DNA of 32,729 nucleotides from Pseudomonadota bacterium. GTDB lineage: Bacteria > Desulfobacterota > Desulfobulbia > Desulfobulbales > CALZHT01. Each line of letters begins with the position of its first letter. Position 1 is the stretch's first letter. The position numbers were made by a program, and so were the translations under genes. Of the stretch, positions 2,563 through 22,199 are shown piece after piece. The notes beneath the pieces were generated by a model, which had not been told where the DNA came from, did no database searches, and saw nothing but the letters and a program-made list of their open reading frames with translations. The DNA lies in assembly GCA_018823135.1 (NCBI GenBank), contig JAHJJF010000005.1:1-32729 (forward strand). The letters are read 5' to 3'.

Positions 2563-4128
2563 TTATTTTGCGTATTCTACGGATCGGGTTTCCCGGATAA
2601 CCGTCACTCTGATCTGTCCCGGATAGGTCAGATTCTTTTCAATTTCCTTGGCTATATCCTTACCTAAAAGAGTTGTCTCGGAATCTGATACTTCCGTACT
2701 GTTTACAACGATTCGCAATTCCCGACCAGCCTGAATCGCATACGATTTTTCAACACCTTTAAAAGATGATGCAATGGTTTCAAGATCTTCAAGCCTCTTG
2801 ACATAGGTCTCAAGCATCTCTTTTCTGGCTCCGGGCCTTGCACCTGAAAGGGCATCAGCGGACTGGACCAGAATATCGAGAACGCTGGTGGGTTCAACAT
2901 CCTCATGATGTGCCGCGATGGCATGAACCACCTCAGGCGCCTCGCCGTATTTCTTTGCTAAATCCCGGCCAATACTTGCATGGGATCCTTCAACCTCATG
3001 GTCAACCGCTTTACCGATATCATGCAGGAGCCCGGCGCGTTTAGCCTGTTTGACGTTCAGACCGAGTTCTGCAGCCATGATACCGCAGAGGAAAGATACT
3101 TCCAGGGAATGCTGCAACACATTCTGGCCGTAGCTCGTACGGTACTTAAGACGTCCAAGCAATTTGACCAGCTCAACATTTACCCCATGAGAACCGACAT
3201 CAAAGGTTGCCTGCTCCCCGGCTTCACGGATGGTCACCTCAAGCTCCTGGGCAACCTTTTCCACCACTTCTTCAATCCGGGCCGGATGAATCCTGCCGTC
3301 TGATATCAAGCGCTCCAATGCTTGGCGGGCCACTTCCCGGCGGACCGGATTAAAGCCGGACAAAATCACCGCCTCAGGAGTATCATCAATTATAATATCA
3401 ATTCCAGTTGCAGCCTCAATCGCCCGAATATTTCTTCCTTCGCGGCCGATAATCCGGCCCTTCATCTCCTCGTTGGGCAACGGAACAACCGACACGGTTT
3501 TTTCCGCAACATAATCACCGGCATAGCGAGAAATAGCCAGAGCAAGAATATTCTTGGCCTTGCGATCAGCCTGAATTTTCATCTCATTTTCGATACGGAC
3601 TACAGCCTTGGCCGCCTCCATACGAGCCTCGCTTTCAATGCTTTCCATGAGCATGGATTTGGCATCTTCTCTGGAAATGCCTGAAATTTTCTCCAGCTGA
3701 AACCGCTGCTCCTCGATTACCGTGTCAAGCTCCTTCTTTTTTCTTTCGAGCTTTTTGTCATCATCGATTGAAGCCTTTTCTTTCTTGAGGAGTTCCATCT
3801 CGCGCTTATCGAGAATTTCGATTTTTCGTTCTATCTGATCAAGCTTCTGCGCGAGCCTTTTTTCCTCTTCGGTAATCTCAATTTTTCGATCCTTAATTTC
3901 CCGCTCAATTTCCTGCTTATACTGAAACGCATCATCCTTGATCTGGAGTGACGCCTCTTTTTTTATCTGTTCGGCTTCCGCCAGGGCTTTTTCAATAAAC
4001 CTCTTTCCCTGCTCCTCAATATTATCCTTGCGGACCTCAATAAATTTCTTTCGAAAATAAAATCCGAGGCCGACTCCTGCCCCAACCCCGACCAATACGA
4101 ATAAAATCACCTGTAATAACATGCTCAC
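2563..4128 (-). CDS. rny: Ribonuclease Y
   Basis: This is a membrane-anchored endoribonuclease that starts mRNA decay. At 521 aa it has the full family layout. Residues 4-26 form a single N-terminal membrane helix. Residues 30-165 form a long charged coiled coil. A KH RNA-binding domain has [10 protein letters not shown] at 224-233. An HD metal-dependent nuclease domain has HDIGK at 369-373, with further His residues in AAHHED near 406-410. I chose the GTG at 4128 because a clear AGGAGG sits about nine bases upstream; an in-frame ATG two codons later is also possible. The gene is preceded by a long AT-rich gap and therefore probably has its own promoter there. tyrS follows. Confidence 0.96.
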
Positions 4129-9334: not shown

Positions 9335-10765
9335 ATGGATACAAAATTATTCAAGCGGCGTGACGAAAACGAGTGGGAAATCCGGCCCCATGGGAAAATG
9401 CAGGTTCCAGGAAAGATCTTTGCCAGCGAAAGCCTTGTCAGATCAATGGACGATAAAGTCTTTGAACAGGTTACCAATGTCGCCGGCCTCCCTGGCATTG
9501 TTGAGGGTTCCTTTGCAATGCCAGACGCCCATTGGGGGTATGGTTTCCCCATCGGCGGCGTTGCGGCATTTGACGCATCAAAAGGGGGCGTGGTTTCCGC
9601 AGGCGGCGTAGGCTTTGATATCTCCTGCGGGGTCAGAACCCTGGTAACCGGACTGACCGCTGAAGATGTTGGCGGCGTGCGGGATAAACTTACCGATCTC
9701 CTTGCCGCAACGATCCCGGCGGGGGTCGGCAGCACCGGCAAACTGCGCCTCAATGATAAAGAAATGGAAAAAATGCTGCTGGGCGGCGCAAAATGGGCGG
9801 TTTCCCATGGCTATGGGATAAAAAAAGATCTGAGCCGCTGCGAGGAAAAAGGCCAGATGCCCGGCGCACTTCCCGAGCATGTCTCGAATCAGGCAAAAAA
9901 AAGACAGCGGGATGAAATGGGCACTCTGGGTTCGGGCAACCATTATCTTGAAATCCAACGGGTGGTCGAGGTGTTTGATCCGCTGGTTGCGGATGTCTTC
10001 GGTCTGGCGCTCAGCGATATTGTGGTGAGCATCCATTGCGGTTCCCGTGGTCTCGGCCATCAGATCGGCACCGAATATCTTAAATCCATGCTGACGGCGG
10101 CAAACAAGTACGGTATTGCCATACCCGAACGAGAACTTGCCTGCGCCCCCATTGATTCCCCCCAGGGGCAGGCCTATCTCGGTGCAATGCGGGCCGCTAT
10201 CAACTGCGCCCTTGCCAACCGTCAGATTCTCACCCATCTGACCAGAAGCGTTTTTGAACGAATCCTCCCACGGGCGCAGATTGATCTGCTCTACGATGTT
10301 TCCCATAACACCTGCAAGGAAGAAGACCATACTATTCAGGGCAAAAAAACACGTCTCTTTGTCCACCGAAAAGGCGCCACCCGCTCTCTTGGGCCGGGAC
10401 ACCCGGATATCCCTGCCGAATTCAGGCAAGTCGGCCAACCAGTCCTGATCGGCGGCACCATGGGCACTTCATCTTATATTCTCGTGGGCGCCAGCACCAG
10501 CGAGGACAAATCCTTCAGTTCAGCCTGCCATGGGGCCGGAAGAAATATGAGCCGCAGGATGGCAATGAAAAAATATAAGGGCAGAACCATCGTAGATGAT
10601 CTTGCCGCCCGGGGAATTGTGATCCGCAGCCCATCGTTCAGAGGCGTTTCCGAAGAAGCCCCCGGTGCATACAAGGATGTCGACGAAGTTGTAGAGGCGA
10701 CACACGCTGCCGGGCTTGCAAAAAAGGTGGTCCGGGTGGAGCCGTTGATCTGCATCAAGGGATAA
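9335..10765 (+). CDS. rtcB: RNA-splicing ligase RtcB
   Basis: RtcB joins RNA ends bearing 2',3'-cyclic phosphate or 3'-phosphate to 5'-OH ends, using GTP and manganese, in tRNA splicing or RNA repair. The 476 aa protein keeps the metal and nucleotide residues: Asp95 and Cys98 in GFDISCG, His203 in GSGNHYLE, His234 in HCGSRGLGHQ, His324 in YDVSHN, and the guanylylated His399 in CHGAGRNMSR. A good GGAGG site precedes the ATG. With archease just upstream this is a two-gene RNA-ligase unit. No RtcA cyclase and no RtcR regulator are in the window, so what induces it cannot be read from here. Confidence 0.97.
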   Translation: MDTKLFKRRDENEWEIRPHGKMQVPGKIFASESLVRSMDDKVFEQVTNVAGLPGIVEGSFAMPDAHWGYGFPIGGVAAFDASKGGVVSAGGVGFDISCGVRTLVTGLTAEDVGGVRDKLTDLLAATIPAGVGSTGKLRLNDKEMEKMLLGGAKWAVSHGYGIKKDLSRCEEKGQMPGALPEHVSNQAKKRQRDEMGTLGSGNHYLEIQRVVEVFDPLVADVFGLALSDIVVSIHCGSRGLGHQIGTEYLKSMLTAANKYGIAIPERELACAPIDSPQGQAYLGAMRAAINCALANRQILTHLTRSVFERILPRAQIDLLYDVSHNTCKEEDHTIQGKKTRLFVHRKGATRSLGPGHPDIPAEFRQVGQPVLIGGTMGTSSYILVGASTSEDKSFSSACHGAGRNMSRRMAMKKYKGRTIVDDLAARGIVIRSPSFRGVSEEAPGAYKDVDEVVEATHAAGLAKKVVRVEPLICIKG

Positions 10766-11027: not shown

Positions 11028-13577
11028 ATGAATATATTCAAAAAGTATCCCACCATCATCTCCGGGGCAGGAATCACCTTACTTTTTCTGTTGCTGGGCC
11101 TCGTCCACCTGGAAGTGATCGACAGCCTGGAATTAAAACTCTATGACCTGAGAATGCACCTCCTTTCAGATCAGGACAGTCCCAGTGAAATCGTCCTGGT
11201 CAACATTGACGACTACTCCATTGAAAATCTCGGCCGCTGGCCATGGCCAAGATCACATATCGCCAAAGGAATCGAAAGCATCAATGCCGGAAACCCGAAA
11301 GCCATCGGCTTGAATATCATCTTCAGTGAGCCGGAAGAAAACACCGGGCTCATAGCCCTTAAAAGGGTGGAAGAAATCCTTGAAGAATCAGGGTTGGCGA
11401 AAACTGAAAATGGCAAAAATGTCATCAAGGAAATGGACAAGCTTTACCTGGCCCTTGACAACGATTCCCTGCTGGCCGATTCAATTAAAGCCGCCGGCAA
11501 TGTCATCCTGCCCATGGCCATGCTTGAATCGGACATTGAAGGTGTTGACACCGGCGAAGCCGATGACAGCCTGCTCAGCATGTCCATAACCAACATGAAA
11601 ATACTGGAGAATTCTTCTTCCCCACAGGCAACCAACCTCCTGCTGCCCATTAAACCGCTGATGCTGGCCGCCAACGGCCTGGGCCATCTTACCCTTGCCT
11701 ATGACATGGACGGCAAGGTCCGTATGGAGAAAACCATTTATGAATTCCGGGAACAATTTTATCCCTCCTATGCCCTGCGGCTAACAGCCGCATACCTGAA
11801 TGTTCCCCTTGAAGAGATCAGCGTTGAACTGGGGAGTTCCATTCAACTGGGCTCCCGACGGGTGTCCACCACCCTGGACTCTGATTTTCCGGTGACTTTC
11901 AAGGGATCCAGCGGCGCCTTCCGGTCCTATTCCTTTTTTGATGTATATACCGGCAAGATTCCTGAAAGCGCTTTTAAAAACAAACTTGTGCTCATCGGCC
12001 CTTCGGCGCTTGGCTTGATTAATCCGTTAAATACACCACTGGAACCGAATATGCCCCTGGGTGAATTATCGGCAAATGTCATCTGGTCGATGCTCAACAA
12101 TAAAACAATTAACAGCCCGGCATGGGACCAGGCCTTCGAGCTCCTGCTGATTCTCCTGGTCGGGCTGATTATTACAATTGTCCTGCCGCGGCTCAAAGCA
12201 AGATTGTCGGCGCTGGTCTTTTTCGGGCTCATGGTGCTGTTTCTCGGTGGCACAACCTATGCCTTTGCCGCAAATGGTCTCTGGATTCATACCGCCTATC
12301 CCCTGCTGGAACTGATCTTCGGTTACTTTGTGGTGATTTCGCTGAAATACTTCTTCACCGAGACCGACAAAGAAAAGGTTGAAGGCGAATCAGCCGAGAC
12401 CAACCGGATGCTCGGGCTGTCATTTCAAGGTCAGGGGATGCTTGACATGGCCTTTGATAAATTCCGTAAATGCCCCGTTGACCAGGGCATGCAGGAAGTT
12501 CTCTATAACCTTGCCCTTGACTACGAGCGTAAAAGACAATTCAACAAAGCAGCTTCAGTTTATGAATATATTGAAAAACACGGCGGTGAGTTCAAGGATG
12601 CCGATGACCGGAAAAAGAAAATGGTCCAGCTTGGTGATACGGTGATCATGGGCACAGGGGGCGCGGACCCACTGCTTTCAAACATAGGTGGTGATGGAGA
12701 CACCAAACCCACCCTTGGCCGTTATGAAATCATCAAGCAGCTGGGCAAAGGCGCCATGGGCATCGTCTATCTTGGCAAGGATCCGCGAATCAATCGGACC
12801 ACGGCGATTAAAACCTTCCGTTTTGCCGATGAACTTGAATCGGATGAAATCGCCGAGATGAAAAAAATGTTCTTCCTTGAAGCGGAAAGCGCCGGCACCC
12901 TGTCTCATCCGAATATCGTCACAATCTACGATGCCGGCGAAGAAGAGGATCTTGCCTATATTGCCATGGAATATCTGGTGGGCAATGATTTAAAGGGCAA
13001 CACAAAAAAAGGCTCACTCCTGCCCATGCGCAAGGTTGTCGGCTACATGGCAGACCTTGCTGATGCCCTTGACTATGCACACAGGCAGGGAATTATCCAT
13101 CGCGATATAAAACCTGCCAACATTATGCTTCTTGATAACGGCGTGGTCAAAATAACTGACTTCGGCATCGCCAGGATTACCTCAAGTTCAAAAACCCAGA
13201 CCCAGACCGGTATCGTCAAGGGCACACCATTCTACATGTCCCCGGAACAGATCTCCGGCGAAAAAGTTGACGGGCGCTCCGATCTTTTTGCCATGGGTGT
13301 TGTCATGTATCAACTCTTCACCGGCGAGGTCCCCTTCCGGGCTGAGAATTTTGCGACACTCATGCATAAAATTATCAATGAACCTCATATTGATCCGAGA
13401 AAACATAACCCGGATATCCCTAAACCCCTGGCACAGATTATCAATTTTGCCCTGGTCAAGGACAAAACTAAACGGTATCAGAAAGCAAGCCAGATGGCTG
13501 ATCATCTGAATAAAGTTCTCAGGTGGATGGACAAAACCGCAAATGGCACACAGACTGCCGAAAGATCATCCTCGTGA
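11028..13577 (+). CDS. CHASE2-domain, TPR-like membrane Ser/Thr protein kinase
   Basis: This 849 aa kinase spans the inner membrane. A membrane helix (about 10-28) leads into a periplasmic CHASE2 sensor domain (about 30-360, with the typical VLVNIDDYSIENLGRWPWPR and LVLIGPSALGL blocks). Two to three further helices follow (about 368-440). A short TPR-like helical segment (about 455-520) links to a eukaryotic-type kinase domain (565-835). Catalytic features are intact: G-loop GKGAMG (573-578), ATP-binding Lys595, HRD at 691-693 with KPAN, DFG at 711-713, and a TxxYMSPE segment closing the activation loop. The periplasmic ligand is unknown. The PP2C phosphatase gene starts 34 bases later, a standard partner that would reverse the phosphorylation. 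Confidence 0.93.
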   Translation: MNIFKKYPTIISGAGITLLFLLLGLVHLEVIDSLELKLYDLRMHLLSDQDSPSEIVLVNIDDYSIENLGRWPWPRSHIAKGIESINAGNPKAIGLNIIFSEPEENTGLIALKRVEEILEESGLAKTENGKNVIKEMDKLYLALDNDSLLADSIKAAGNVILPMAMLESDIEGVDTGEADDSLLSMSITNMKILENSSSPQATNLLLPIKPLMLAANGLGHLTLAYDMDGKVRMEKTIYEFREQFYPSYALRLTAAYLNVPLEEISVELGSSIQLGSRRVSTTLDSDFPVTFKGSSGAFRSYSFFDVYTGKIPESAFKNKLVLIGPSALGLINPLNTPLEPNMPLGELSANVIWSMLNNKTINSPAWDQAFELLLILLVGLIITIVLPRLKARLSALVFFGLMVLFLGGTTYAFAANGLWIHTAYPLLELIFGYFVVISLKYFFTETDKEKVEGESAETNRMLGLSFQGQGMLDMAFDKFRKCPVDQGMQEVLYNLALDYERKRQFNKAASVYEYIEKHGGEFKDADDRKKKMVQLGDTVIMGTGGADPLLSNIGGDGDTKPTLGRYEIIKQLGKGAMGIVYLGKDPRINRTTAIKTFRFADELESDEIAEMKKMFFLEAESAGTLSHPNIVTIYDAGEEEDLAYIAMEYLVGNDLKGNTKKGSLLPMRKVVGYMADLADALDYAHRQGIIHRDIKPANIMLLDNGVVKITDFGIARITSSSKTQTQTGIVKGTPFYMSPEQISGEKVDGRSDLFAMGVVMYQLFTGEVPFRAENFATLMHKIINEPHIDPRKHNPDIPKPLAQIINFALVKDKTKRYQKASQMADHLNKVLRWMDKTANGTQTAERSSS

Positions 13578-13611
13578 AAAATATTTACCTATTATTTCAA
13601 AGGGTTAATTA

Positions 13612-14421
13612 ATGCTAGCCATTGAATCCGCCGGCCTTACCGATATCGGCAATAAAAGAAAAAACAATGAAGACAGCTACTTCCTTGATGACGACCTGAA
13701 ACTCTATATTGTTGCGGATGGCATGGGCGGGCATCTTGCCGGGGAGGTTGCCAGCAAACTGGTGGTGGACACCACCAGAGATTACCTTAAACGTTTCCAT
13801 ACCGGTATTCAGGTCGAAGAACTCATTGACACCGACCCGTCACTTTCCAAAAACGCCAACCGCCTTATCGCCGGACTGCAACTGGCAAACAGTGTCGTCA
13901 ACAAATTTTCTGAAAACAAGGGCGCTTACAGCGGAATGGGTTCAACGGTTTCCGCAGTGTATTTCCCCGGAGACTCGCTCATAGCGTCAAACATCGGCGA
14001 CAGCCCCATCTTCCTGGTCCATAAGGGAGAAATCAGTCTTGTTTCAGTCATCCACAATGTTGCCGCAGAGCAGGCGATCCTTGATCCTGAAGGCGCCAAA
14101 GACCTGAACGGCAAATATTCCAATATCCTCACCAGGGCCATGGGCAAGGATGAGGATATAATGCCCGCCACCCGTGAAATCAGGGTAGTGCCCGGTGATA
14201 TCATCATCCTCTGTTCCGACGGACTCTCGAGCTATGTCCCGGACCATGAGATAAAAGATATTGTCGCGGCAGGCTCTCTTGAGGAATCCTGTAAAACCCT
14301 GGTCGACCTCGCTTTAGAAAGAGGCGGGCACGACAATATCACGGTAGTCCTCCTCAGAGTCAAAAAGGTCCGCGGATTCCTGTCAGGATTGTTCGAATTC
14401 TTGAAAAAACCTTTTGGCTGA
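13612..14421 (+). CDS. PP2C-family Ser/Thr protein phosphatase
   Basis: A 269 aa cytoplasmic metal-dependent phosphatase of the bacterial PrpC/Stp group. The metal-binding and catalytic motifs are all present: NNEDSY (18-23), VADGMGGH (34-41), NIGDS (127-131), CSDGLSSY (201-208) and GGHDNITVV (238-246). It directly follows the CHASE2 kinase and likely dephosphorylates that kinase and its targets. The C-terminal 20 residues (FLSGLFEFLKKPFG) look amphipathic and might associate with the membrane, which would put the phosphatase near its kinase; that point is inference. Confidence 0.94.
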   Translation: MLAIESAGLTDIGNKRKNNEDSYFLDDDLKLYIVADGMGGHLAGEVASKLVVDTTRDYLKRFHTGIQVEELIDTDPSLSKNANRLIAGLQLANSVVNKFSENKGAYSGMGSTVSAVYFPGDSLIASNIGDSPIFLVHKGEISLVSVIHNVAAEQAILDPEGAKDLNGKYSNILTRAMGKDEDIMPATREIRVVPGDIIILCSDGLSSYVPDHEIKDIVAAGSLEESCKTLVDLALERGGHDNITVVLLRVKKVRGFLSGLFEFLKKPFG

Positions 14422-14531
14422 CCAAAAGATTTCAGGGATTTTTTTTGCGGGTTCCCTCTGTCTGATCAATCTGATTTTTCACAGCCCCGCAACTTGATGA
14501 TCAGGCGGCAGAAAAGCAAGGACTCCCGGCC

Positions 14532-14732
14532 ATGCAGAAAACATTAATTTTCATCGGCATAGCTTTTCTGGCAATCGGTCTGCTCTGGCCGACGCTCTCC
14601 AGAATTCCTCTTGGAAGGTTCCCCGGAGATATCATCATTACCCGGCCTCATTTCAAAATATACATCCCCATCACCACAATGGTCCTGATCAGCCTGATTC
14701 TCTCGGTTCTGGCGCGGATATTCCGGAAATAA
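14532..14732 (+). CDS. DUF2905 family small membrane protein
   Basis: A 66 aa protein with two membrane helices (about 4-20 and 43-62). They are joined by the loop IPLGRFPGDIIITRPHFKIY, which is the hallmark of the DUF2905 family (LGRLPGD followed by a hydrophobic strand and Tyr). The family is widespread in bacteria and has no known function. AAGGA lies about nine bases before the ATG. It sits 110 bases after the phosphatase gene and about 210 bases before kamA, with no clear link to either. Confidence 0.85.
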   Translation: MQKTLIFIGIAFLAIGLLWPTLSRIPLGRFPGDIIITRPHFKIYIPITTMVLISLILSVLARIFRK

Positions 14733-14770
14733 ATCCATCTGATTACAACAAGTTATATCGTCAGCAGACG

Positions 14771-14787
14771 ATTATTTAAAAAATAAT
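14771..14787. repeat. AT-rich palindrome upstream of kamA
   Basis: ATTATTT and its exact reverse complement AAATAAT are separated by three bases. It lies just upstream of a candidate kamA promoter and could be an operator, or the AT richness of the area could produce it by chance. Confidence 0.3.
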
Positions 14788-14807
14788 TTCCCCATAACAA
14801 ATTTCTC

Positions 14808-14836
14808 TTGCTTTTCCATTATAAGAACCCTATAAA
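14808..14836 (+). promoter_or_regulatory. Candidate sigma70 promoter of kamA
   Basis: TTGCTT (14808-14813) and TATAAA (14831-14836) are separated by exactly 17 bases, about 105 bases before the chosen kamA start. Four of six -35 and five of six -10 bases match consensus. Confidence 0.4.
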
Positions 14837-14942
14837 GCAGTTAAATAGTAGATGTTTAATTATACAAATTTGCCACCAGCACCGGACCAGGCAACCATCC
14901 GGAATTATAAAGAATCACAAAGAGTTTCAAGGAACAGCCGCC

Positions 14943-16394
14943 ATGTCGAAATTAGAAATCACCACTGTACAGGATGAACCCCCAGACGAAGTCTCGCAAA
15001 ATGAGGAAAAACCTCCAAGCCAGGGTATTTATTCCTCAACCACCGCCTATCGCAACGCTTCACCCGCAATAACCCACCTTTCAGTCAACAACCTCGGATC
15101 GAAAAAAACCAAAACCACCAGGAAGATACAGAACATTCTGCCATTTTTTCCTTTATCTGAAGATAAAAGCCACCAGGGCTGGACTTCATGGCAATGGCAG
15201 ATCCGTCACAGAATTAAAACAGTCCGGCAACTGGAAAATTTCTTTGCCGGCGCAGCCATCCAATCGGACATCGAAAACGCCATCCACCGCTTTCCAATGG
15301 CGATCACCCCTTATTACGCTTCGCTGATCCGCAAGATGGAACCCTCAGACCCTGTTTATCGCATGGCTGTCCCAATGACCGACGAACTGCATGATCCGCC
15401 CTTTCTCCTGGATGACCCCCTGGAAGAAGAGCACGACATGCCTGTCCCCGGCTTGGTGCATCGTTACCCTGACCGTGCCCTGATCATGGTGACCTCCATG
15501 TGCGCCATGTACTGTCGGCACTGCACAAGAAAACGGGTTGCCGGGCAACGTGAAGTCAACATTTCACAGCCGCAGCTGAAAAGAATTATCAATTACCTGG
15601 TAAATCATCCGGAAATACACGATGTTATCCTGTCCGGAGGCGATCCTCTTACCTTACGGACTGAATCACTGGAAAAAATTATTGCCGCGGTCCGCAGTGT
15701 TCCCAGTGTCGATATAATCCGTATAGGAACCAGGACACCGGTTACCATGCCGATGCGCATCACCGAAGAACTGGTGACCATGCTTAAAAATTACCAGCCG
15801 CTCTGGGTGAACACTCATTTCAACCATCCCAATGAAATTACCGCAGAATCCCGGGCGGCCTGTGCCAGACTGGTGGATGCCGGTATCCCCATGGGCAACC
15901 AGACCGTCCTCCTGCGCGGCGTCAACGACAACCCCCAGGTGATGGAGGAACTGCTGCGCGGCCTGATAACCATGCGCGTCCGCCCCTATTATCTTTACCA
16001 GTGCGATCTGGTCAGGGGTGTGGAACATTTTCGCACGCCATTGTCCCGGGGCATTGAAATAATGGAATATCTCCGCGGCCGTATTTCCGGGTTTGCAATC
16101 CCGACTTTTGTAGTCGATGCTCCCGGCGGCGGCGGCAAGATCCCCGTGCTCCCCAATTACCTGATCACCAGCAGTCCGACACATACGGTGCTCAGAAATT
16201 TTGAAGGCATGCTGGTCAGTTATCCTGAGCCGATTGCTACCGGAAGGATGGAGGTTCAGTCCTTCCAGACAAAAAACAAAACCATCGAATCTATTAATCC
16301 GACGGTCTTTGATCTCGCCACGGGTCGAGCCCTCAAAATAGAACCGATGACTTCTCTCCGCAAGAAGCGCCGCAGCAGACGTTCGTCTGCCTGA
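14943..16394 (+). CDS. kamA: Lysine 2,3-aminomutase
   Basis: A radical-SAM, PLP-dependent enzyme that converts L-lysine to L-beta-lysine. The [4Fe-4S] motif CAMYCRHC gives Cys187, Cys191 and Cys194. The PLP lysine is Lys399 in APGGGGKIPV. The two Asp residues that bind the substrate lysine side in clostridial lysine 2,3-aminomutase are present: Asp355 in YQCDL and Asp392 in VVDAPG. The core from residue 80 to 430 matches clostridial KamA closely (for example THFNHPNEIT and GNQTVLLRGVND), which separates it from the shorter EpmB. At 483 aa it is longer than usual because of a polar N-terminal extension (about 1-78) and a basic tail ending RKKRRSRRSSA. The ATG at 14943 follows AAGGA; an upstream in-frame leader from 14808 overlaps the candidate promoter. 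Two ATP-grasp genes follow. Confidence 0.95.
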   Translation: MSKLEITTVQDEPPDEVSQNEEKPPSQGIYSSTTAYRNASPAITHLSVNNLGSKKTKTTRKIQNILPFFPLSEDKSHQGWTSWQWQIRHRIKTVRQLENFFAGAAIQSDIENAIHRFPMAITPYYASLIRKMEPSDPVYRMAVPMTDELHDPPFLLDDPLEEEHDMPVPGLVHRYPDRALIMVTSMCAMYCRHCTRKRVAGQREVNISQPQLKRIINYLVNHPEIHDVILSGGDPLTLRTESLEKIIAAVRSVPSVDIIRIGTRTPVTMPMRITEELVTMLKNYQPLWVNTHFNHPNEITAESRAACARLVDAGIPMGNQTVLLRGVNDNPQVMEELLRGLITMRVRPYYLYQCDLVRGVEHFRTPLSRGIEIMEYLRGRISGFAIPTFVVDAPGGGGKIPVLPNYLITSSPTHTVLRNFEGMLVSYPEPIATGRMEVQSFQTKNKTIESINPTVFDLATGRALKIEPMTSLRKKRRSRRSSA

Positions 16395-16475
16395 TCCGGA
16401 CGCTTCCGTCTCAGAAAACAACAGAATCATGATTCCCAACCATGGCGTGCATAGCACCCTTGACCTGAAAGACAT

Positions 16476-16503
16476 CCCGGCGTATTCTAAAAAATACGCC
16501 GGG
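16476..16503 (+). terminator. Strong hairpin between kamA and the ATP-grasp genes
   Basis: A perfect 11-bp stem, CCCGGCGTATT pairing with AATACGCCGGG, encloses a six-base loop. Only a short, mixed TCTTTGCTT follows, so it is an imperfect intrinsic terminator. It could partly terminate kamA mRNA, protect its 3' end, or act on read-through into the next gene 65 bases later. Confidence 0.6.
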
Positions 16504-16567
16504 TCTTTGCTTAATGCAATTGCAACCCTCCTGATTCAAAGACCAGATACCCCGTAAGGAAATTTTC

Positions 16568-17557
16568 ATGAAAATTAAACACATCGGCCTTGTATACGAT
16601 CTGCGTTCCGCTTATCTGGCAGAAGGTTATTCCGAGCAGGATGTGGCGGAATTTGATTCCGAATCGACCATTGACGCCCTTGAACAGGCGATCAACGCCA
16701 ACGGCTACCAGGTCTCGAGAATCGGCCACGGTCGCCAACTCAACCAACGGCTGATTAACGGTGAACGCTGGGATCTGGTTTTCTCCATTGCCGAAGGGCT
16801 TAAAGGACGCTCCCGGGAAGCGCAGGTGCCGGCCCTGCTTGAGATGTACGGCCAGCCCTATGTTTTTTCCGATCCATTGACCTGCGCCGTAACCCTGGAC
16901 AAGTATGTTGCAAAAAAAATTATCCTGGCCGATGGCCTTGCCACCCCAGCCGCGGCCCTGATCCATAGCAAAGACGACCTCAGGGAATTCCGTCTGCCGT
17001 TCCCGGTTTTTGCTAAACCGGTGGCCGAGGGTACCGGCAAGGGTATCAGCAGCCGGAGCCGTATTGATACCATTGATGCCCTGCATAATGTCGCAGGCCA
17101 ACTGCTTGAGGATTTCCCAGGCCAGCCGGTTCTGGTTGAGGCCTATCTTCCGGGAAGGGAATTCACCACCGGCATCCTGGGTACCGGTCATAAAGCCCGT
17201 ATACTGGGCACCCTTGAGGTATGCATCAAAGATAATGCCCCGGCCGCCGACTATTCCTATGAGGTAAAAGAACTTTGCGAAGACTTTGTCGATTATGTCC
17301 CAGTAGTAAAGGGCGACAGCCTGATTGATGCCGTGGAGGCCCTTGCCCTGGCCTCCTACCGTTCACTGGAATGCCGCGACACCGGAAGGGTTGACATTCG
17401 CCTTGATGCCGCAGGCACCCCGTGTTTCATCGAAATCAACCCGCTTCCGGGCCTCCATCCGCACCATTCCGATCTGCCGATGATTGCCACTGCCATGGGT
17501 ATGAATTATAACGATCTTATCGGCGGCATTATCGCCAGCGCCTTTGACCGGGTATAG
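16568..17557 (+). CDS. D-Ala-D-Ala ligase-like ATP-grasp ligase
   Basis: A 329 aa ATP-grasp protein of the D-alanine-D-alanine ligase superfamily, which joins an amino acid to the amino group of another through an acyl-phosphate. The N-terminal domain carries FSIAEGLKGRSREAQVPALL (72-91) in place of the Ddl EGxxGEDG segment. The central domain has PVFAKPVAEGTGKGI (146-160), including the ATP-binding Lys. The C-terminal metal site is RVDIRLD (274-280) and FIEINPLPGL (287-296). The altered N-terminal segment argues against a housekeeping Ddl and for another substrate. TAAGGA lies just before the ATG. The next ligase gene starts 13 bases after its stop, so the two are surely one operon and may act in sequence or as a pair. 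Confidence 0.88.
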   Translation: MKIKHIGLVYDLRSAYLAEGYSEQDVAEFDSESTIDALEQAINANGYQVSRIGHGRQLNQRLINGERWDLVFSIAEGLKGRSREAQVPALLEMYGQPYVFSDPLTCAVTLDKYVAKKIILADGLATPAAALIHSKDDLREFRLPFPVFAKPVAEGTGKGISSRSRIDTIDALHNVAGQLLEDFPGQPVLVEAYLPGREFTTGILGTGHKARILGTLEVCIKDNAPAADYSYEVKELCEDFVDYVPVVKGDSLIDAVEALALASYRSLECRDTGRVDIRLDAAGTPCFIEINPLPGLHPHHSDLPMIATAMGMNYNDLIGGIIASAFDRV

Positions 17558-17570
17558 AGGAATTCATGAA

Positions 17571-19121
17571 ATGACCATCCTGCGCGATAAAGAGATTCTC
17601 CTCCTGTACAATCTGCCGGCCGCCGATGCTCTGGAAAGCGAAAAAGGCGTCCTTGTTGAAAGAGATACAGTTGCCGCATCCCTGGAAAAACTAAAAATAC
17701 CTTATAAGGCCATAGGAGTCCGGGATCTTTATGACATTACCACCGTGCTCGCCGACAAACAGGATCATATAATTTTCAACCTGGTTGAAGGATTTGCAAA
17801 AAAATCGGAATCAGCAGCACACGTCCCTGCGGTCTGCGAATCATTCAACTGCCAGGCCACCGGTGGCTCAACCGCCTGCCTGACCCTTACTCTTGATAAA
17901 GTTAAAACCAAAGGCGTCCTTTCTGCGGCGTCAATTCCGGTACCCAAAGGCATCAAGGTCCGCCCCGGTTCCCTGCCGGAAAAGTCCGAGCTTTTCCCCG
18001 GACCCTATATTGTAAAACCTGCCTGCACCGATGCCAGCGAAGGACTATTTGCCGAGAGCTCGGTTTGCAAGCATTACGGCAAGGAATTACTTGACGCCAT
18101 AAAATTAATCCATAAAGATTTCAAACAACCGGCCATTGTGGAACAGCTGGTTGGCACCCGGGAATTCAATGTTTCGGTGATTGAGATAAACGGCAGGATA
18201 AGCATTCTGCCCATCGCTGAGATCAGTTTCGCGGCCTTTCCGGAAGACATGCCGCGCATCGTCGACTACTCGGCAAAATGGATCGAATCTTCCTTTGCCT
18301 ACGCCAACACACCCCGTATTTTCCCGGATAATCTGCCCGAGACCCAGAAAAAAAGGATATCAACCCTTGCGGTAAAATCCTGGCACGCTCTGGGCTGCCG
18401 CGACTATGCACGAGTGGATTTCAGGATGGACGATTTCGGCAATCTCTATGTTCTCGAGGTGAACTCCAATCCCGACATCTCACCTGATGCAGGTTTTGCC
18501 GCAGCATTGGAAAAAGAAGGCATAGCCTATCATCGCTTTGTCGACGCCATGCTGCAGAATGCAAAAAAACGCCTGCATGCGGATAATCCGCCAAAGACTG
18601 TGATTCCGTCATCACCAGAAGCCCTTTTGCCTCCAATCGCAGAAGATGACGTCCTGGTCCGCCACATCAACCCCAAGGACCAGCAAGATATCCTGAATAT
18701 TCTGAACGCCACGGTGATCTTCAGACCGACAGAATTAGTTGTTGCCGCAGAAGTCCTTGAATCAAGCATCAGCAATGCCATAGAAAGCGAATATTTCTCG
18801 CTGGTCGCTGAATCCGCAGGGCAGATCTGCGGCTGGATCTGTTACGGGCCGACCCCCTGCACCTCCGGAGTCATGGATATTTACTGGATTGTTGCTTCAA
18901 CAAAGCTCCGCAGACGGGGCATCGGCCGCGCCTTAATGACTGCGGCTGAAAAAGAAATCCGTGCATCAGGAGCAAGACTGATTACCATTGATACCGCCGG
19001 CAGAGACGATTACCTCCCCTCCCGCCTTTTCTATCAGAATGCCGGCTATGAAGAAAAAGCCCGGATCAGGGATTTTTATACACCTGGTGATGACAAGGTT
19101 GTTTTTGTTAAGGAGTTGTGA
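17571..19121 (+). CDS. ATP-grasp ligase fused to a GNAT acetyltransferase
   Basis: A 516 aa fusion. Residues 1-330 form a second Ddl-like ATP-grasp domain: NLVEGFAKKSESAAHVPA (70-87), YIVKPA (146-151), a metal site in RVDFRMD (281-287) and VLEVNSNPDI (294-303). After a Pro-rich linker (about 332-360), residues 361-516 form a GNAT N-acetyltransferase domain with the acetyl-CoA loop RRRGIGRALM (447-456) and a typical YQNAGYEE end. In the known acetyl-beta-lysine osmolyte pathway a GNAT enzyme (AblB) acts after KamA (AblA), so this domain may acetylate beta-lysine or a peptide containing it. I chose the ATG at 17571, preceded by GAGG, over an upstream TTG. A three-codon minicistron ATG-AAA-TGA overlaps the start. 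Confidence 0.88.
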   Translation: MTILRDKEILLLYNLPAADALESEKGVLVERDTVAASLEKLKIPYKAIGVRDLYDITTVLADKQDHIIFNLVEGFAKKSESAAHVPAVCESFNCQATGGSTACLTLTLDKVKTKGVLSAASIPVPKGIKVRPGSLPEKSELFPGPYIVKPACTDASEGLFAESSVCKHYGKELLDAIKLIHKDFKQPAIVEQLVGTREFNVSVIEINGRISILPIAEISFAAFPEDMPRIVDYSAKWIESSFAYANTPRIFPDNLPETQKKRISTLAVKSWHALGCRDYARVDFRMDDFGNLYVLEVNSNPDISPDAGFAAALEKEGIAYHRFVDAMLQNAKKRLHADNPPKTVIPSSPEALLPPIAEDDVLVRHINPKDQQDILNILNATVIFRPTELVVAAEVLESSISNAIESEYFSLVAESAGQICGWICYGPTPCTSGVMDIYWIVASTKLRRRGIGRALMTAAEKEIRASGARLITIDTAGRDDYLPSRLFYQNAGYEEKARIRDFYTPGDDKVVFVKEL

Positions 19122-19163
19122 AGCCGACACTCTTGATTTTTTTGATCTTCAGCCGTTGCTTTA

Positions 19164-19697
19164 TCATATGGTCAATCGGGAAATAAATTCCAGGTCTTCC
19201 ATATCCAGCTCGTCATCTTCACCTGCCGATTCTTTAAAAAGCCCGGGGATCACCATCCAGGAAACCGACCACCAGCCCGACTCATTTCTTTCAAGAGCAG
19301 CAACCCCGCCCATCCGAAATCGGAGAATTTCTTTTTCCTGATCGCCGGAGATAAGCAATGCCGCAAGCCTCGCAAGGTGCGGCAGGTGGCCGACAAGCAT
19401 CGTATCCTCATCAGAAGCATTGAGGCGTGATGCCCATATTTGCGGATCATCAAGGGGCAATAATCCTGCAATCTCCAAAGGCGGGGCAAGACTTAGTTCC
19501 CCTGCAAAAGCATCAGCGGTCTGTTGCGCCCGGAGTTTACCGCTGTGATAGACATTTACGGTTTGTGAAAGATCAATGTTTTTTGCTAAAAAGGCGATGA
19601 CCTTTCTGATCTCTTCTATCCCTTTGTACGAGAGAGGCCTTCGGAGATCCTTCTCTTTGGGCATCGCCTCACCGTGCTGAAGCAGATATACTTTCAT
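19164..19697 (-). CDS. sixA: SixA-type histidine phosphatase
   Basis: A 177 aa member of the histidine phosphatase superfamily, in the short SixA branch, which removes phosphate from phosphohistidine in phosphorelay or PTS proteins. The catalytic motif is LLQHGEA, with His8 as the phospho-acceptor (QHG in place of the usual RHG). YHSGKLRAQQTA (50-61) provides the second Arg and helix, and VGHLPHLARL (102-111) gives the second catalytic His104. The C-terminus is acidic (ESAGEDDELDMEDLE). It starts 27 bases after the helicase stop and converges on the ATP-grasp/GNAT gene. Its partner protein is not evident. The H-NOX hybrid kinase nearby has no Hpt domain of its own. Confidence 0.85.
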   Translation of the reverse strand: MKVYLLQHGEAMPKEKDLRRPLSYKGIEEIRKVIAFLAKNIDLSQTVNVYHSGKLRAQQTADAFAGELSLAPPLEIAGLLPLDDPQIWASRLNASDEDTMLVGHLPHLARLAALLISGDQEKEILRFRMGGVAALERNESGWWSVSWMVIPGLFKESAGEDDELDMEDLEFISRLTI

Positions 19698-19724
19698 AAT
19701 TTTCCTTTATTCAAAAAATTAATA

Positions 19725-22199
19725 TCAGATGTTTTCCTGAAGTTTAAGGTGGGCGAGCACAAGGTTGATTTCACCGTAGGAATAGTCGTCGCCCAAGGCG
19801 ATTTTCAGTTCCTTGAGCGAACCACCCTGAATTTCAGTAAGTTTCTGGGCAATGGCCTGTTGTTTTGCAGACGGCACCAGTCTGCCGATTTCCAGCTTGC
19901 CGGCCTGAACGAAACCGGCCAGGTGCCCCTCAATGGTAGCATTGGCCAGACCGCGTTCTTCGGCAATTTGCTTCACGCGTAATCCTGATTGAAACATCTC
20001 AAAACTGACCTGTCTGGTGTTTCTTGCCGGCATTTTTTCTTCTTTGACTTCAACCTCTTGAAGCGCGACTTGGGGTTCGGGCAACATCACCTCGGCAATC
20101 TCGTGTTTCCGGCGATAGGCTGAAACCATGGCAACCAGTTCCGCGCCGTATTTTTCCACGAGCCGGGGGCCGATTCCCTTTATTCTTTTCAGGTCGGCAG
20201 GATTGTCGGGCAGGTTCACCGCAATCTGGATCAGCACGCTCTGGTGCATAATCCGAAAATGTGGGAGCCCTTCCTCCGCGGCCTTTTGCGAACGCCAGTC
20301 CTTCAGGGCCTGAAACAACTCGGGATGACCGACATCGGCGGCGGTGTATTGCGTTGAGGCTTTTCTTTCCTTCCCTGATTTGAAATCAATTTCTGCGACA
20401 GATATGGCGCGCAGATAGCTGGCAAGCGAAAAACCGGCCTCACAACTCTTCACCGCCGCCGACTTCACGGCAATTTCCTTGTTCAATTTGTTCAGGATAT
20501 CCTTGAGCCTTTTAGCAATTTCCTTATTATCCGTGTCTACTCGGAAATCTCGAAGATTTGCTGCCAGAATCGTTTCGATTTTTTCCTGAAAATAGCCTGA
20601 TGCCCTGGTGATGCGCTCCGAAACAACAGCGTCCATTTCGGGCAGTTTGTCATTGGCAAAGAGACTGCGCAATTGCCGCTTGAAATTTTCGCCGATATCA
20701 CAAATTTCAGCCCCCCCCTTTCGCGCCAATTCGTGAAAATCATCCACGCCGGCAACTGTCACCAGTCTGGCGTTTGCGAGCAACACCCGCAGCAACTGAT
20801 TCAAGTAAAAATGCAACGACTTAAAATCAAAGCATTCCATCAATAAACGCTGCTGATAGCGGTTTTTTGCGTCTATCAGCTGTTGTTGCGAGGGCGAATT
20901 TCTCATCGCATTATCCACAAAACGGCATACCGTCTTATCACTTTTCACACAATTTGCTGAAAGAGGCGTACTGAGTATCATGCCCTCAAATGTCTTACAA
21001 CGGCTCAGGGCTACATAAACCTGGCCATGAGCAAAGGCGGCGTTGGCGTCGATCACGGCCTTTTCAAAAGTGAGCCCCTGACTCTTATGAATAGTAATGG
21101 CCCAGGCCAGTTTCAGCGGGAATTGCACGAATTCTCCGACTTTGCTTTCAATAATCTCCTTGGTTTCCTTGTCGATTGTATACTTGATATTTTCCCAGGT
21201 TGCCGGTTCGACTACGATCTCGGCGCGGTCGCCTGGGCACTTGACGGAAACCTCTTCACGAGACACACGTGTCACTTTACCGATCTTGCCGTTGAAATAG
21301 AGTTTATCGCGAGAAGAATCGTTGCGCACGAACATCACCTGGGCGCCGACCTTAAGTTCAAGCTCGGCCGGAGCCGGATAGGTGTATTCGGGGAAATCGC
21401 CTGCGACATCGGCGTTAAAACGACGCGTTTTTGCCGGCAACTCAGCCAATTTGGATTCGTTGATCGCGTCAACGCCGCGATTGTGGGTGCCGAGGGTAAT
21501 GTAACCTTCGTCGTCCTGCAGCACAAAGTTAGGGAGATAACGGCGGTTGATCTCCTGCAGAGTATCCTGATCCAGCCTGTTATCGCGCACCCGGTTGAGC
21601 AGCTCAATGAAACGTGGGTCCGACTGGCGATAAATTTGTTTCAGTTCAATGGAAATCAGTTCGGTGTGACGCAAAGCATTACTGCTGAAAAAATAGAACG
21701 ATTCATAATAATCGCGCAGAAGTTGCCATTCGGCATCCTTCACCACCGGAGACAACTGGTACAGATCGCCGATCATCAACAACTGCACGCCGCCAAAGGG
21801 CAATTCGTTACCGCGATAACGACGCAGGACTGCATCGACGCCGTCCAGCAGATCGGCACGAACCATGCTTATTTCATCGATCACCAGCAGGTCGAGACTC
21901 CTGATGATGTTGATTTTTTCCTTGTTGAATTTGTGCTGGCTGCTGCGATCATACGATTCGCTGCCAGGCACAAACGGACCAAAGGGCATCTGGAAAAAAG
22001 AATGCAGGGTAACCCCGCCGGCATTGATTGCCGCCACTCCGGTGGGCGCGGTGACGATCATCCGTTTAGGGGTGTTCTTTTTCAGATTATGAAGAAAGGT
22101 GGTCTTGCCGGTACCAGCCTTGCCGGTGAGAAAAATATTGCAATCAGTGTCCCTGACAAAATCACCGGCAAGTTGCAGTTCGGGGTTTGAGGTGCTCAT
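19725..22199 (-). CDS. PIF1-like helicase with HRDC and C-terminal HTH domains
   Basis: An 824 aa superfamily 1 helicase, likely acting on DNA repair or replication intermediates. The motor has Walker A GKAGTGKT (26-33), the PIF1-type APTGVAAINAGGVTLHS block, Walker B LLVIDEISM, and a C-terminal motif WAITIHKSQGLTFEKA with YVALSRCKT. After a coiled segment (about 430-600) comes an HRDC-type nucleic-acid-binding domain (ELFQALKDWRSQKAAEEG and LKRIKGIGPRLVEKYG). The last 100 residues form a RecQ-C-like helix-turn-helix (VKQIAEERGLANATIEGHL). I chose the ATG at 22199. A GTG at 22235 overlaps the stop of the upstream gene by four bases (GTGA) and cannot be excluded. The zinc-ribbon gene precedes it and sixA follows. 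Confidence 0.9.
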   Translation of the reverse strand: MSTSNPELQLAGDFVRDTDCNIFLTGKAGTGKTTFLHNLKKNTPKRMIVTAPTGVAAINAGGVTLHSFFQMPFGPFVPGSESYDRSSQHKFNKEKINIIRSLDLLVIDEISMVRADLLDGVDAVLRRYRGNELPFGGVQLLMIGDLYQLSPVVKDAEWQLLRDYYESFYFFSSNALRHTELISIELKQIYRQSDPRFIELLNRVRDNRLDQDTLQEINRRYLPNFVLQDDEGYITLGTHNRGVDAINESKLAELPAKTRRFNADVAGDFPEYTYPAPAELELKVGAQVMFVRNDSSRDKLYFNGKIGKVTRVSREEVSVKCPGDRAEIVVEPATWENIKYTIDKETKEIIESKVGEFVQFPLKLAWAITIHKSQGLTFEKAVIDANAAFAHGQVYVALSRCKTFEGMILSTPLSANCVKSDKTVCRFVDNAMRNSPSQQQLIDAKNRYQQRLLMECFDFKSLHFYLNQLLRVLLANARLVTVAGVDDFHELARKGGAEICDIGENFKRQLRSLFANDKLPEMDAVVSERITRASGYFQEKIETILAANLRDFRVDTDNKEIAKRLKDILNKLNKEIAVKSAAVKSCEAGFSLASYLRAISVAEIDFKSGKERKASTQYTAADVGHPELFQALKDWRSQKAAEEGLPHFRIMHQSVLIQIAVNLPDNPADLKRIKGIGPRLVEKYGAELVAMVSAYRRKHEIAEVMLPEPQVALQEVEVKEEKMPARNTRQVSFEMFQSGLRVKQIAEERGLANATIEGHLAGFVQAGKLEIGRLVPSAKQQAIAQKLTEIQGGSLKELKIALGDDYSYGEINLVLAHLKLQENI

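Follow-up and report, generated by a model that had tools for sequence, protein, structure and literature searches.

A conserved kamA, ATP-grasp and GNAT gene cluster and its possible acetylated beta-lysyl product

What might a bacterium make with a lysine 2,3-aminomutase, two Ddl-like ATP-grasp proteins and a GNAT acetyltransferase fused to the second of them? The question is raised by genes lying side by side in a stretch of 32,729 nt (the window: forward strand of contig JAHJJF010000005.1, assembly GCA_018823135.1). The answer favored here, which we consider evenly balanced between right and wrong, is a conserved small-molecule pathway whose product is a beta-lysyl peptide or amide bearing an acetyl group that can be taken off again.

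Enzymes encoded by the cluster

The gene set proposed by the sequence-only reading (kamA, AG1 and the AG2-GNAT fusion) was borne out by domains, residues and predicted folds (Table 1). The open reading frame of the fusion spans 17544-19121 (+). Judged by sequence, the ATG at 17571 is a likelier start than the TTG at 17544, since it has the better ribosome site (AGAGGA ahead of the ATG); residues 1-8 of the longer form are predicted with a pLDDT below 50. AG1 stops 13 bp ahead of that ATG, so AG1 and AG2 are probably translated together. The intergenic gap between kamA and AG1, on the other hand, is 173 bp and contains a terminator-like hairpin, so a single kamA-AG1-AG2 transcript is not assured, and the hairpin, as a candidate terminator, could make expression of kamA separable from that of the ligases. 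A search of Rfam with window positions 13000-20000 returned no elements at the gathering threshold. Elsewhere in the window (9335-10765) lies a gene for an RtcB-family protein. Among NCBIfam models it best matches one for intein-containing RtcB-related proteins, at a score below the cut-off.

Table 1. Features of the cluster, in window positions
Feature	Position	Strand	Remarks
kamA, lysine 2,3-aminomutase (radical SAM, PLP), LAM_C domain	14943..16394	+	483 aa
Hairpin, GC-rich, in the kamA-AG1 gap; terminator-like on both strands	16476..16503	.	prediction; surrounding stretch z = -2.95
AG1, stand-alone Ddl-fold ATP-grasp, predicted ligase	16568..17557	+	329 aa
AG2, second Ddl-fold ATP-grasp domain, N-terminal part of the fusion	17571..18584	+	ORF readable from TTG 17544
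GNAT domain, C-terminal part of the AG2 fusion	18651..19121, boundaries approximate	+	nearest solved structure 2r7h

KamA matches the lysine 2,3-aminomutase of C. subterminale (2a5h) at 481 bits, its sole PDB match, and the LAM_C C-terminal domain is found in it. On TIGR03820 it scores 518.5 bits, just under the cut-off of 525.4 and well above its scores on the glutamate, arginine and EpmB models (261 on EpmB vs a cut-off of 369); identities as EpmB or as a glutamate or arginine aminomutase were rejected because of these lower scores. It had been read as a true lysine 2,3-aminomutase, as it probably is, for every lysine-aminomutase residue checked is there: Cys187/191/194 (CxxxCxxC), Asp355 (= D293), Asp392 (= D330) and Lys399 (= K337). 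Both lysine-binding Asp residues and the PLP Lys are conserved in 106 of 106 cluster KamAs, and this retention of the contacts to the lysine side chain supports a pathway by way of beta-lysine. A different amino acid could in principle be the substrate.

AG1 and AG2 had been described as Ddl-like, and sequence searches and structure prediction agree: both are predicted to have a Ddl fold (pLDDT 89.6 for AG1, 90.3 for AG2), and the Foldseek matches listed for them are Ddl or Van-type ligases. Neither reaches Ddl cut-offs, AG1 scoring 149.9 and AG2 112.8 on the NCBIfam Ddl model NF002378 (cut-off 243). Aligned with the genome's own Ddl, the product of a separate gene on contig C106, and in E. 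coli DdlB numbering, both proteins retain the ATP-grasp lysines and the equivalents of K215, R255/D257 and E270/N272. At the Tyr216 position, however, AG1 has Glu and AG2 has Trp, and the Ser281-equivalent is kept in AG1 and absent from AG2. The Ddl triad E15/S150/Y216 is therefore lost in both at Y216 (E15 and S150 were not confidently placed). With Tyr216 replaced and a separate Ddl in the genome, AG1 and AG2 are, so far as sequence can tell, not ordinary Ddl enzymes.

Domain searches confirmed the GNAT domain of the fusion, and its profile has a single PDB match at E <= 1e-8, a structure (2r7h) named as a putative D-alanine N-acetyltransferase. The 43 cluster GNATs match mainly generic NCBIfam models, the window GNAT falling far below every cut-off. 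An identity as AblB, the beta-lysine acetyltransferase, was rejected: matches to TIGR03827 are weak, occur in 2 of the 43 members and do not include the window GNAT among those listed. The window domain is no nearer to AblB than to generic GNATs, and AblB was not found elsewhere in the genome. TIGR03103 likewise matches 2 of the 43 weakly and is not among the families listed for the window's fusion protein or for the GNAT domain within it. At one locus (L139:13647-15140), a cluster-type GNAT is fused to an arginase-family domain.

Distribution of the unit and a fifth component

When species genomes were scanned with an AG1 alignment, at least 574 relatives of AG1 came to light. Neighborhoods were counted around the best 80 of these, picked by AG1 similarity, so the fractions describe close relatives; 45 of the 80 loci have full flanks. 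At these 45, kamA lies beside AG1 in 42, AG2 in 37, a GNAT nearby in 36 and an AG2-GNAT fusion in 12, and over all loci kamA is held by 107 of 121. The outcome that would have refuted the sequence-only reading, ligase genes mostly apart from kamA, is thus not seen among close relatives, and the neighborhood is conserved. Nor is the composition singular: the same set recurs widely in species genomes. Within the window's class, genomes of different families have the same gene order of kamA, AG1, AG2 and GNAT, with the GNAT mostly a separate protein, and AG1 is present at E <= 1e-60 in 108 of 395 genomes drawn phylum-wide. Hundreds of bacterial species, spread over many phyla, carry the kamA-AG1-AG2-GNAT unit, and a deacetylase often accompanies it.

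Pairwise distances between the parts are correlated (Mantel r of 0.73-0.77 among kamA, AG1 and AG2, 0.82 for AG2-GNAT, and 0.89 for both AG1-HDAC and kamA-HDAC), owing partly to shared ancestry. Fusions also join parts: AG2-GNAT (in the window and in others), GNATx-HDAC-GNAT, and a double Ddl-type ATP-grasp (L111, L165). Conservation of the neighborhood across many phyla, correlated divergence and fusions together argue that the parts form one pathway. Perhaps kamA and the ligases are instead mere neighbors with separate functions, kamA serving, for example, in lysine catabolism. The hairpin between kamA and AG1 would suit such an arrangement, and AG1 relatives that are more diverged (about 40-46% identity) often lack kamA as a neighbor in the fetched stretches and have other architectures. 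Set against the adjacency in 42 of 45 close relatives and the correlated divergence, however, separate functions seem very improbable.

Other genes recur near the unit. A small Cys-rich protein (CxxCxxCC; PF03692 match in L108) is encoded just 5' of AG1, mainly in Planctomycetota (L108, L110, L119, L120, L132, L137, L138 and others), and a gene resembling a TetR-type regulator, by sequence inspection, lies upstream of kamA in L076, L077, L079, L080, L086, L087, L089-L091 and L093. In L171-L175, kamA-AG2 is several kb away from AG1, with a histidine kinase and a sigma-54-type response regulator between them in L174. A longer Ddl-like ATP-grasp, of about 720 aa, is followed in L188 (2502-6968) by a gamma-glutamyltranspeptidase and an N-formylglutamate amidohydrolase; it is found as well in L189-L191, and the following genes of L190 and L191 match the lengths of those in L188.

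The deacetylase constitutes a fifth component, encoded outside the window and so out of sight of the sequence-only reading. The protein, of about 580 aa, has a GNAT-like N-terminus (about 250 aa) and a histone-deacetylase-type domain, and some examples carry an extra C-terminal GNAT. The nearest solved structures to the deacetylase domain are acetylpolyamine amidohydrolases (APAH; 251 bits), an assignment made on the L045 relative rather than on a window gene. It is linked to the cluster in some genomes (13 of the 45 full-flank loci, and absent from most cluster neighborhoods). Other genomes have both without linkage, as here, where the deacetylase gene (L160:3583-5457, G000:C143) is 65% identical to that of L045. 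It has an in-frame TAA at 4117-4119 and may be a pseudogene, or the stop may be an assembly error.

In the draw of 395 genomes, AG1 is present in 30 of the 37 with the deacetylase (Fisher p = 9e-13, odds ratio 15, uncorrected for kinship), on a different contig in 15 of the 30. Seven deacetylase-bearing genomes lack AG1 at the threshold used; a diverged AG1 belongs to a cluster in one of them, and in another kamA lies beside the deacetylase. This co-occurrence, together with the APAH enzymes as nearest solved relatives, argues for the deacetylase as part of the pathway. Beside a deacetylase-like gene in L193 (7561-10714), and also in L192 and L197, lies a Ddl-like ATP-grasp of about 710 aa, fused in L193 to a Peptidase_S58 domain.

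The window's own copy of the cluster has probably been acquired horizontally, judging by its relatives. In a quick tree of AG1 without bootstrap, it falls in a clade mostly of Planctomycetota, Lentisphaerota and Acidobacteriota (26 rows, SH-aLRT 97), apart from copies of the same order, and the nearest rows to the window KamA, AG2 and GNAT come from the same set of phyla. The copy thus groups with other phyla and not with its own order. The contig itself looks native, since a PIF1-type helicase encoded downstream shares 54-71% identity with same-order genomes, and misbinning was rejected on that account; an upstream CHASE2 kinase, with full-length matches of 34-41%, is less informative.

Possible products and their use

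Sequence shows the classes of enzyme, the fold, those catalytic residues that were checked, the conservation of the unit and the co-occurrence of the deacetylase. In the order of reactions that we infer from them, KamA would convert L-lysine to beta-lysine, and AG1 and AG2, presumed to use beta-lysine, would activate carboxylates as acyl phosphates and couple them to amines, so that a beta-lysyl compound (dipeptide, tripeptide or amide) results. The GNAT (here on AG2) would acetylate an amino group, at a presumed position on substrate or product, and the GNAT-like/APAH-type deacetylase, encoded elsewhere in the genome, would remove the acetyl group for turnover or deprotection. The resulting peptide would be non-proteinogenic and masked in charge, and its likeliest physiological role, on the same inference, is stress protection or nitrogen storage. 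Several observations weigh against this pathway: the GNAT shows no special closeness to AblB, distant AG1 relatives frequently lie away from kamA, a hairpin follows kamA, and the deacetylase is absent from most neighborhoods and interrupted by a stop codon in this genome. The sequence-only interpretation is supported in part (the KamA residues, the conserved cluster, ligase sequences that differ from ordinary Ddl).

That interpretation had suggested a compatible solute, here taken in the strict sense, a salt-induced acetylated beta-lysyl dipeptide, which we now think unlikely. The parts would fit such a product, and the deacetylase co-occurs with BCCT transporters, a salinity proxy (9/37 vs 18/358, p = 0.0003, uncorrected for kinship). 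However, AG1 shows no such co-occurrence (6/27 vs 102/368, p = 0.66, likewise uncorrected), several relatives carry record titles that to us look like digester or freshwater rather than saline sources, and no salt-linked gene was seen to recur beside the cluster in 121 loci. The osmolyte idea is an analogy only, with AblAB (PMC1224877) and with N-acetylglutaminylglutamine amide.

The pairing of a GNAT with a deacetylase would also suit a logic of protection and deprotection. Acetylation of beta-lysine is a known mechanism of streptothricin resistance, and the product might be a bioactive beta-lysine peptide, streptothricin-like or an antimetabolite, against which the GNAT protects the producer until the deacetylase activates it. 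The STAT model matches 4 of the 43 GNATs, but weakly, and generic GNAT models fit at least equally well. A distribution over many phyla would be unusual for a weapon, and neither an exporter nor an NRPS gene was seen to recur in the cluster across 121 loci; all in all, a bioactive peptide appears quite improbable.

Or perhaps the ligases modify the envelope, attaching, for example, beta-lysine to peptidoglycan precursors after the manner of Ddl and Van enzymes. The Ddl fold invites this analogy, and Van-type ligases are among the nearest characterized non-Ddl relatives of the two proteins. Yet two ligases are conserved where one would suffice, the GNAT and APAH types suggest a soluble small molecule, and the same 121 loci revealed no recurring cell-wall gene. 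Envelope modification is accordingly difficult to credit.

The cluster may then represent a widespread, undescribed class of pathway to an acetylated beta-lysyl peptide, with KamA, two Ddl-fold ligases and a GNAT, and with recycling by an APAH-type enzyme, a view to which we lean tentatively and with somewhat less than even assurance. No description of the cluster or its product was found among the hits listed in searches of open-access literature; subscription journals lie mostly outside it, so the absence is weak evidence. If the proposal is true, a small-molecule pathway built from well-known enzyme classes is common to hundreds of bacterial species, and the known uses of beta-lysine extend past osmolyte, EF-P modification, catabolism and antibiotics. 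The product would be directly searchable by metabolomics, and the AG2-GNAT fusion would allow two enzymatic domains to be assayed in a single protein.

Each part has a familiar counterpart. The N-epsilon-acetyl-beta-lysine pathway of methanogens and some bacteria uses a lysine 2,3-aminomutase (AblA) and a GNAT (AblB), according to PMC1224877 and PMC2821294. The cluster pairs the same two enzyme types but adds two ATP-grasp ligases, and its GNAT is not AblB. EpmB/YjeK, which acts in beta-lysylation of EF-P, shares the KamA superfamily; YjeK lacks the LAM C-terminal domain (PMC2821294), whereas the window KamA has it. AG1 and AG2 share with Ddl the fold and the ATP-grasp catalytic residues but differ at the Tyr216-equivalent and, in AG2, by loss of the Ser281-equivalent. 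N-acetylglutaminylglutamine synthetase (TIGR03103) also combines GNAT and ATP-grasp in one polypeptide, but there the GNAT comes first, while in the window the ATP-grasp is N-terminal and of the Ddl type. Finally, APAH enzymes (e.g., 6phr, 3q9b) are the nearest counterparts of the fifth component's deacetylase domain, to which the protein adds its N-terminal GNAT-like region and sometimes a C-terminal GNAT.
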